Origin: Leucobacter sp. Ag1
GTDB lineage: Bacteria > Actinomycetota > Actinomycetes > Actinomycetales > Microbacteriaceae
Direction: 5' to 3'
Assembly: GCF_000980875.1 (NCBI RefSeq)
Contig: NZ_LAYO01000096.1
Span: 1 to 64,000 of the forward strand
Length of the DNA stretch: 64,000 nucleotides
The position numbers and the translations under genes are program-made. Below the pieces are notes generated by a model, which ran no database searches, was not told where the DNA came from, and saw nothing but the letters and a program-made list of their open reading frames with translations. This document shows positions 2,333 to 4,171 of this stretch, in pieces. Position 1 is the first letter of the stretch. Every line of letters begins with the position of its first letter.

Positions 2333-4171
2333 ATGCCCTTCACTGCGACGCCCCGCGGCCTGACTCTTCCGGATCTGACCGACGACGTGCGATCCGTCGA
2401 CGTCTGCTTCGGCGAGCAGCGCGTCTGGTCCATCGATCTCCTCGACCGCGAGGAGGCTCCGACGCAGGCCCTGCCTTGGCCCGCCGTGCTGCGCCCGCAC
2501 CTCGCGGGCCAAACCGAGGTCGTGCTCCGGCGTTCCGGCGACGGCGGCGAACTCGGCCGCGCGACGGTGTCGTTCAGCGAGGACCCGCACGAGACGCGAG
2601 TCGTCGACGCCGAAGGCATCCCCCTCGCGATCAACAAGTGGGGCCGGCTGGGCAAGACCCTCGAGGCCGGCAACGTCGGCGTGCAGGAGCGGATCCTCGA
2701 CCGCACCGAGGAGGTCGTCGCGCACCTCGTCGACATGGGCCTGCGCCCCTTCGTCGTCGGCGGTACGCTGCTCGGCGGCGTCCGCGAGGGCGCGCTGCTC
2801 CCGCACGACGACGACGCCGACGTCGCCTACCTCTCGGAGTTCACCAACCCGGCCGACGTCGCCCGCGAGGGCTTCGCCGTCGGGCACCGGCTGCAGCGCC
2901 TGGGCTACGAGCTCGTGCGGCACAGCGCCACACACATGCAGCTGTACTTCCGCAGCGACTCGGGTTCCGTCGACCACTACGTCGACGTGTTCACGGCATT
3001 CTTCACCGACGACGGCAACATCAACCAGCCGTTCCACGTCCGCGGTCCGCTGCGCGAGGATCAGATGCTGCCGTTCGGAACGGTCTCGATCGCGGGCCGC
3101 GACTTCCCGGCCCCGGCCGACCCCGATGCCTGGCTCGTCATCAACTACGACGAGAACTGGCGCACGCCGATCCCCGGCTACCACCTGGGCACCCCGCGCA
3201 GCACCTCCCGGCGCTTCCAGAGCTGGTTCGGCTCGTACCACTTCAAGCGCGACTTCTGGAACGAGTTCTACGAGGGCACGGCGGAGGCCGGCGACCCCGA
3301 CGCCCGCTGGGCCGCCCACGGCGAGTGGATCCTCCGGCAGAACGAGTCGCTGACCGCGCCCGTGCTGCTCGAACTGGGCGCCGGGAGCGGCGCGCTGAGC
3401 GCCCGGCTCCGAGCGCAGCGCCCCGCGACCGGGCGGGAGCCCGGCCGGCGGGTCATCGCGAGCGACTACTCGACCTACGCGCTCGCGGTCGAGCGGGCGC
3501 GCGCCGAGCAGACCGCCGAAGCGGATCGGTTCGAGGTCGCTCATCTCAACCTGTCCCGGACCCTCTCGCTCGACGTGTTCCGCAGGCTCGGGGTGACCGG
3601 ACCGGTCGACATCGTCGCCAATCACCTGCTCGAGCAGGTCAGCCACCTCGCGCGTGCGAACGCGCTGCGCCTGATCCGCATGGCGCTCCGCTCCGGCGGT
3701 TCCGCCGTGGTCACCGTCCACGGCCAGCACGCGCCGGACGTCTCGTTCGACGATCCGACCACCTGGCATCTGAGCACTTTCGACCTCGCACGAGAGGCGA
3801 AAGCGCTCGGACTCGGCGTCGAGTTCGAACCGCTCGGCATCGCGCCGGGCGAACCGGACCGCCGGTCCTACGGAGCACGATTCACCCTCGCGGAAACCCC
3901 ACTCCCGCAGAAAGAGATCTCCATGAAGCAACGTCTGAAGCGTCTCGCGATGCGCGCCCGGCCCAGCGGAACCCGCGCCGAGCTGGAAGCGCTCACCGCC
4001 CGCGTGCGCGAGCTCGAGAGCGAACTCGACGAGTACCGGCGCGATAGTCTCCGCGTCGCCGAGCTCCTCGACCTGGCCGAGCAGCGCCTCACCCCGGGCG
4101 ACGCTCAGGCGAGCAGTGCAGGATCGGTTCCGGCCGCCGACCGCGGCCACGAGCCGAAAGCAGGAGAATGA
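2333..4171 (+). CDS. LicD-family phosphotransferase fused to a SAM methyltransferase and a coiled coil
   Basis: A 612-residue cytosolic protein with three modules. Residues about 115-310 are a LicD/fukutin-type nucleotidyltransferase fold: [11 protein letters not shown] (143-153) followed by the acidic PHDDDADV (157-164), with a later HYVDVF strand. LicD enzymes transfer phosphocholine or similar groups from nucleotide carriers to glycans. Residues about 340-530 look like a class I methyltransferase, with motif [12 protein letters not shown] (345-355), an acidic SDYS strand and [12 protein letters not shown]. The last 75 residues contain a charged heptad-like helix ([19 protein letters not shown]) and a disordered tail. 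The gene overlaps the next by ATGA, implying coupling to the galactofuranosyltransferase. I infer that one polypeptide both adds a phospho-group and methylates the same glycan; substrates are unknown. Confidence 0.8.

Follow-up and report, generated by a model that had tools for sequence, protein, structure and literature searches.

A LicD-methyltransferase fusion protein and its coiled-coil partner in Leucobacter sp. Ag1, with a proposed role in glycan finishing

The fusion gene, its domains and its neighbours

The analysed window, a stretch of 64,000 nucleotides from the Leucobacter sp. Ag1 genome (3.54-Mb assembly), contains on its forward strand a 612-aa open reading frame (positions 2333-4171) in which a LicD domain, a methyltransferase and a coil follow each other in one frame. 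Divergent from it, the glf gene encoding UDP-galactopyranose mutase was found on the reverse strand (1058-2200; TIGR00031, 348.2 bits at a cut-off of 303.75). The stop codon of the fusion gene overlaps the ATG of the next gene by 4 nt; this ATGA overlap joins it to the gene of a GlfT1-like GT2 glycosyltransferase (4168-5157, forward strand; NF050113, 88.7 bits at a cut-off of 330), which a sequence-only reading of this DNA had described as coupled to it. A DUF6270 protein, identified via Pfam, is encoded directly behind the GlfT1-like gene (5210-5971, forward strand). Behind this LicD operon, 6034-9216 encodes a protein of 1060 aa that contains three copies of the CW_binding_2 repeat; it is also encoded nearby in L032 (73% identical) and L057 (67%). 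Further along the forward strand, a Wzm-like ABC permease (35578-36486) and a TagF-like polyol-phosphate transferase, joined with a GT4 domain in one 1249-aa ORF (41107-44856), were located by domain scan. A Wzt/TagH-like ATPase with a weakly LGFP-repeat-like C-terminal part lies at 36392-37600, also on the forward strand, when its ORF is taken from the first possible start. The TagF-like ORF gave no matches against NCBIfam at E 1e-30; TagF-like matches in open frames of more than 1000 aa occur in relatives too.

Four parts could be delimited in the fusion protein. An N-terminal beta-rich domain (residues 1-112; 2333-2668) was modelled as residues 1-118 with a pLDDT of 87.4; its best structure matches were FN3/Ig-like sandwiches and were too weak for a fold assignment (Z 5.6, rmsd 2.7, 71 aligned), and Foldseek returned no matches of the model at E <= 0.001. 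It is followed by a LicD/FKRP-type nucleotidyltransferase-fold domain (residues 113-302; 2669-3238), recognised by Pfam, profile and Foldseek, and by a class I SAM methyltransferase domain (residues 304-521; 3242-3895), recognised by Pfam, profile and fold. The last part (residues 531-612; 3923-4168) starts with a basic stretch and is a DUF6752-like coiled-coil part by Pfam, profile, model and a heptad test. In the model, this tail is a single predicted helix of about 39 residues (548-586; 3974-4090). The heptad-rich character ascribed to the tail from the sequence was confirmed for its periodicity (p 0.0004 against shuffles); the helix is short, and the tail belongs to a small gene family encoded apart from the enzyme in most relatives. 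When 26 coils were put through the same test, 20 of them reached p<0.05; a misplaced anchor affected several segments, most of which were among the six without significance.

With the window protein alone, all three Pfam matches fell just under their curated cut-offs: LicD with 19.9 bits (cut-off 22.6), Methyltransf_12 with 27.2 (30) and DUF6752 with 26.7 (27). Among 40 aligned relatives, LicD was found at E<=0.001 in 39 and Methyltransf_25 in 34, and a more distant relative, L151, clears both the LicD and the methyltransferase cut-off. In the PDB, a profile of LicD-methyltransferase relatives matched FKRP with E 1e-6, and its methyltransferase matches went down to E 5.5e-8. The whole-protein model (pLDDT 83.1) also had FKRP as its top Foldseek match (E 6.8e-9), and its methyltransferase part matched solved methyltransferases with Z 16.8-19.1 among the 50 matches listed, e.g. 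7bgg with Z 19.0, rmsd 2.9 and 191 aligned residues. The SAM fold expected for this region was thus present by both domain search and structure prediction. That the ORF is an artefact or a product of chance could be dismissed, since it shares 77-85% identity with its three closest relatives.

Conserved active sites and distribution

The active sites were compared in an alignment of the 40 relatives, with identities down to 32%. The GGTLLG motif (residues 143-148; 2759-2776) is of the hG[GS] type with T for S, and its G143, G144, T145 and G148 are kept in all 40 rows. The DDDAD motif follows at residues 159-163 (2807-2821), where D159, D161 and D163 align with FKRP D360, D362 and D364. D218 (2984-2986) is the likely counterpart of FKRP D416, a placement based on spacing and on its presence in 40/40 rows. 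All four aspartates are invariant across the alignment, and the corresponding D360, D362, D364 and D416 are reported as essential in FKRP (PMC6965139). SAM motif I, ELGAGSG, occupies residues 347-353 (3371-3391; LELGAGSG at 346-353); its GxGxG is kept in 38 rows and broken in two. Other well conserved methyltransferase residues are D378 (39/40), N406 (38/40), H431 (38/40) and W478 (36/40). The protein therefore has the hG[GS] motif (T for S), three catalytic aspartates, family profile and fold of the LicD/FKRP family, and from the class I methyltransferases it has the Rossmann fold, motif I and an acidic residue behind strand 2. The presence of a LicD site, a methyltransferase motif and a heptad-rich tail in one frame, read at the outset from the letters, is upheld by profile, fold and conservation over the 40 rows, and the joining of LicD and methyltransferase is genuine, with conservation at both active sites.

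Mean pairwise identity over the 40 rows amounts to 61% for the LicD domain, 41% for the N-terminal domain and 38% for the methyltransferase. The faster change of the methyltransferase would fit a variable acceptor or a looser constraint.

The LicD-methyltransferase body was found in 36 of the 100 genomes searched, including the genome of the window itself; two further genomes, G019 and G086, matched with the LicD part only, which brings the matching genomes to 38. Of the 14 named loci encoding relatives, 12 belong to Leucobacter and one each to Cryobacterium and Microbacterium. Counting matches to single parts, a search at E<=1e-10 hit 38 of 398 genomes in the family, 39 of 394 in the class and 9 of 396 in the phylum. 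Several families of the Actinomycetes have kept a LicD enzyme that carries a methyltransferase in the same protein. Plasmid records gave five matches with 28-32% identity, in the LicD part. The methyltransferase part alone was matched at six places (G402, G366, G143, G460, G131 and G475), in open frames of 226-659 aa. One locus, L127 (G155), carries two LicD-methyltransferase genes near each other with a TarI-like gene in between.

Close relatives were not LicD proteins with an unrelated C-terminus; LicD-only relatives appeared at much lower similarity. Of five such distant relatives scanned, three have TPRs before the LicD domain and two have nothing named by Pfam. FKRP, Cps7C and the TPR-LicD relatives are all multi-domain, which makes it doubtful that LicD proteins usually consist of a single domain, as the sequence-only reading had it.

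The coiled coil as a partner gene

The coil is fused to the enzyme in 14 of the 40 rows (13 by frame, plus the second copy of G027 from alignment and profile match) and is encoded separately in the other 26. In 22 of these 26 split rows, enzyme stop and coil start share an overlap of exactly 4 nt (ATGA; GTGA in two). The remaining four comprise a 1-nt overlap in one, a larger overlap in two and a start about 10 nt downstream in one. In the series L084-L122, which shares three loci with the 40-row set, the coil profile matched (E <= 3.3e-4) at 38 of 39 loci; at the 39th, the coil lies about 1.5 kb away on the opposite strand. At two loci the coil is upstream with an intervening gene, L139 bears an additional coil at a distance of 7.8 kb from the nearest same-strand core, and a coil also occurs at one locus from another class. 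In G023 (L067), the coil frame extends into a frame of 783 aa that lies at an acyltransferase gene, through fusion or assembly error; the sister genome G034 encodes its coil separately, in 78 aa.

A quick tree built from 76 cores requires six changes of the fused state, and five or more of these are forced by strongly supported branches. On this tree, fusion or splitting occurred at least five times, and the joining or splitting of the coil and enzyme genes on so many occasions counts as good evidence for cooperation between their proteins.

DUF6752 (PF20537) is a family without an assigned role. The tail of the window protein can be regarded as a member or near-member, as the window locus scored 30.7 bits in the genome search, above the cut-off, next to the 26.7 bits of the protein alone. 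Across the 100 genomes, DUF6752 was detected in 34 of the 36 with the enzyme (29 of them above the Pfam cut-off) and in none of the 64 without it, and all 34 matches lie at the enzyme locus; in the two enzyme genomes missed by this search, a small coil gene is visible by eye. In these genomes the family is bound to one enzyme, so that the unit consists of an enzyme and a dedicated coiled-coil partner, and an uncharacterised family gains a fixed partner and a likely role. The open-access PMC literature yielded no mention of DUF6752.

At the junction in the window, AGAAAGAG is followed by ATCTCC and ATG (3909-3925, forward strand) at the position where the coil genes of relatives have their start codon, which could be a remnant or a weak internal start. 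In 9 of the 14 fused genes, GGAG stands 5-6 bases before a start codon at this old start (ATG in seven, TTG in two), although the rows are related, a Glu codon gives part of the GGAG and TTG is one step from ATG. The same combination was present at 21 of 1066 in-frame ATG/TTG codons in the genes called in 12 of these loci. The window junction has AAAGAG only and does not show the GGAG-plus-start pattern. With the relatedness of the rows, the Glu codon and this AAAGAG, internal initiation that would make a free coil from fused genes is conceivable, with a better case in the relatives than in the window.

Galactan genes, donor and proposed function

The gene neighbourhood was examined at 60 loci, two of them from the same species, over up to about 8 kb on each side, with homologues clustered and most clusters identified by scanning one representative (four for TarI). 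Glf was found at 31 loci, a UDP-sugar dehydrogenase at 22, GlfT2 at 20, a Wzy_C protein at 18, a GlfT1-like protein at 17, a TarI-like protein at 16, Wzm at 14, Wzt at 12 and a TagF-like protein at 8; these are lower bounds because the gene caller overlooked the Glf of the window and four cores. Genome-wide, with relatedness ignored, glf occurs in all 36 genomes with the enzyme and in 30 of the 64 without it, and GlfT2 in 30/36 and 20/64, respectively. Within the genus, again ignoring relatedness, glf is present in 34 of 34 genomes with the enzyme and in 10 of 20 without. Together with glf and the GlfT1-like gene that adjoin the fusion gene in the window, this agrees with the earlier placement of the fusion beside Galf genes, as far as this genus is concerned. 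TagF-like genes were uninformative as a partner, since 53 of 54 genus genomes have them with or without the enzyme. The link to galactan is not general, because at all five loci L138-L142, from another family, neither Glf nor Wzm/Wzt nor the TarI cluster was found within about 8 kb. In the Corynebacteriales, wall galactan is made by the Glf/GlfT1/GlfT2 pathway, with GlfT1 as the initiating enzyme; Glf, GlfT1-like and GlfT2 genes are present in the genome of the window as well, and the Corynebacteriales pathway is not known to include a LicD-methyltransferase step.

Characterised members of the LicD/FKRP family (PF04991) differ in their donors: FKRP, the top Foldseek match of the window protein and hence a pointer to a polyol donor, is a CDP-ribitol enzyme (PMC6965139), Cps7C, which carries a TPR domain, uses CDP-glycerol in capsule priming (PMC11666461) and Mf1 uses CDP-choline and CDP-ethanolamine (PMC11982090). 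The window protein has in common with them the hG[GS]-like motif, DDDxD, a third Asp site, the fold and probably a CDP-alcohol donor, and adds the C-terminal SAM methyltransferase and the dedicated coiled-coil partner. Fifteen long and two short genes, 17 in all, make up the TarI-like cluster. Four were scanned: three long ones combine IspD and SDR domains and the short one has IspD only; for one long gene, the closest PDB match was a ribitol-5-phosphate cytidylyltransferase (E 3.1e-34). As a TarI-like gene lies near 16 of the 60 loci, a CDP-polyol donor seems likelier than CDP-choline. Among the 36 enzyme-bearing genomes, only 6 have a full-length TarI-SDR, as do 2 of the 64 that lack the enzyme. 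For the window species the ribitol link fails, because no full-length TarI-SDR, the type of CDP-ribitol synthase searched for, was found in its genome, and the best of its three IspD-like matches, on contig C29, is an ordinary ispD (210.3 bits at a cut-off of 181.3). TagD is present above its equivalog cut-off (181.8 bits against 165.4), so that CDP-glycerol is available in this species. PF01467 cytidylyltransferases of some kind occur in 60/60 genomes and are informative only via one small gene, TagD.

The best explanation of these results, to which we give an even chance, is an enzyme that finishes glycans in the cytoplasm together with a coiled-coil protein of its own, and in which LicD-dependent transfer of a polyol phosphate would be followed by methylation. 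The LicD domain would transfer a phospho-alcohol, most likely a polyol phosphate, onto a lipid-linked glycan on the cytoplasmic side. Its donor may be CDP-glycerol, giving glycerol phosphate, in the window species, and ribitol phosphate could be used in lineages with a TarI-SDR neighbour; the acceptor in Leucobacter is probably a galactofuranose polymer. The methyltransferase, held beside the LicD domain, would methylate the same product, which would place both groups on one glycan, and the coil may oligomerise the enzyme and dock it at the membrane or at a glycosyltransferase encoded nearby, for instance the GlfT1-like one. This explanation covers a chain-end cap and a chain decoration alike, and the rivals overlap with it. 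It makes the protein a testable candidate for the finishing of galactan-like and related polymers in Actinomycetes.

A serious rival is a chain terminator of the WbdD type, in which a phosphate ester and a methyl group would cap the non-reducing end ahead of ABC export and the coil would keep capping at a distance from polymerisation and so set chain length. PMC11231755 and PMC3482155 describe ABC-transporter systems in which coiled-coil terminators work with methyl or methyl-phosphate caps, and the terminators described there are all from Gram-negative bacteria. The window protein shares with WbdD types (E. coli O9a WbdD, Klebsiella O7 ORF6) a methyltransferase, an enzyme for a phospho-group, a coil fused to or translationally coupled with the catalytic part, and an ABC glycan exporter in the same genome region, the Wzm/Wzt pair being inside the window and Wzm and Wzt at 14 and 12 of the 60 loci. 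However, it has LicD in place of an ATP kinase and another domain order, and its coil is often a separate gene in relatives (26/40). At about 39 residues, the predicted helix 548-586 is not an extended ruler, while the C-terminal domain of WbdD with its coiled-coil motifs spans residues 460-708 (PMC3482155). No cap-binding Wzt_C domain was found in the Wzt of the window by Pfam (E 0.1), and its LGFP match is sub-threshold (18.5 bits at a cut-off of 22). In addition, Wzm lies near just 14 of the 60 loci, and the neighbouring glycosyltransferase is GlfT1-like, i.e. of the initiating type and not a polymerase. A WbdD-like cap by analogy is therefore possible and not a conclusion, and we hold this reading as tentative. 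A more specific version, in which the LicD-methyltransferase and the coil protein would cap ABC-exported actinomycete wall glycans with a methylated polyol phosphate, and the internal ribosome binding site and start of fused genes would still make free coil, with the ratio of fusion to free coil tuning complex make-up and so chain length, appears improbable.

Decoration along the chain is a somewhat doubtful alternative to the terminator, one in which phospho-alcohol and methyl would be substituents of the repeat units and the coil would merely anchor the enzyme. Other known LicD enzymes also decorate glycans or glycolipids. Mf1 is one described example (PMC11982090), and the fast-changing methyltransferase part would suit varied acceptors, but the tight pairing with a coil gene is left unexplained by decoration alone. 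It is unlikely that the LicD domain acts as a primer or transition transferase, setting the first polyol phosphate on the galactan or a linkage unit for a TagF-like enzyme to extend into a teichoic-type chain. The use of CDP-glycerol by the LicD-family protein Cps7C in capsule priming (PMC11666461) is a precedent, and TagF-like genes are found at 8 of 60 loci (one representative scanned) and in the window at 41107-44856; nevertheless, they are present in the genus regardless of the enzyme, and priming needs no methyl group. Less likely again is a zwitterionic head group, for which LicD would transfer phosphoethanolamine or phosphocholine and the methyltransferase would N-methylate it in place. 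The donors of Mf1, CDP-choline and CDP-ethanolamine (PMC11982090), would be in line with it, and the fold matches include phosphoethanolamine methyltransferases (Z 16.9-17.4), but these are tied with many others and thus unspecific, and the neighbour genes and TagD favour polyol donors.

LicD enzymes, methyltransferases and coiled-coil terminators are each known already; in the titles and abstracts retrieved from the open-access PMC literature, no description of a LicD-methyltransferase fusion, or of such a core paired with its own coil gene, was found. In G027 (L045:9764-11056), a GlfT1-like protein has a basic, coil-like C-terminal extension; its match to the DUF6752-tail profile is weak (E 0.037), and it is noted here as a weak candidate for a link between the two proteins.
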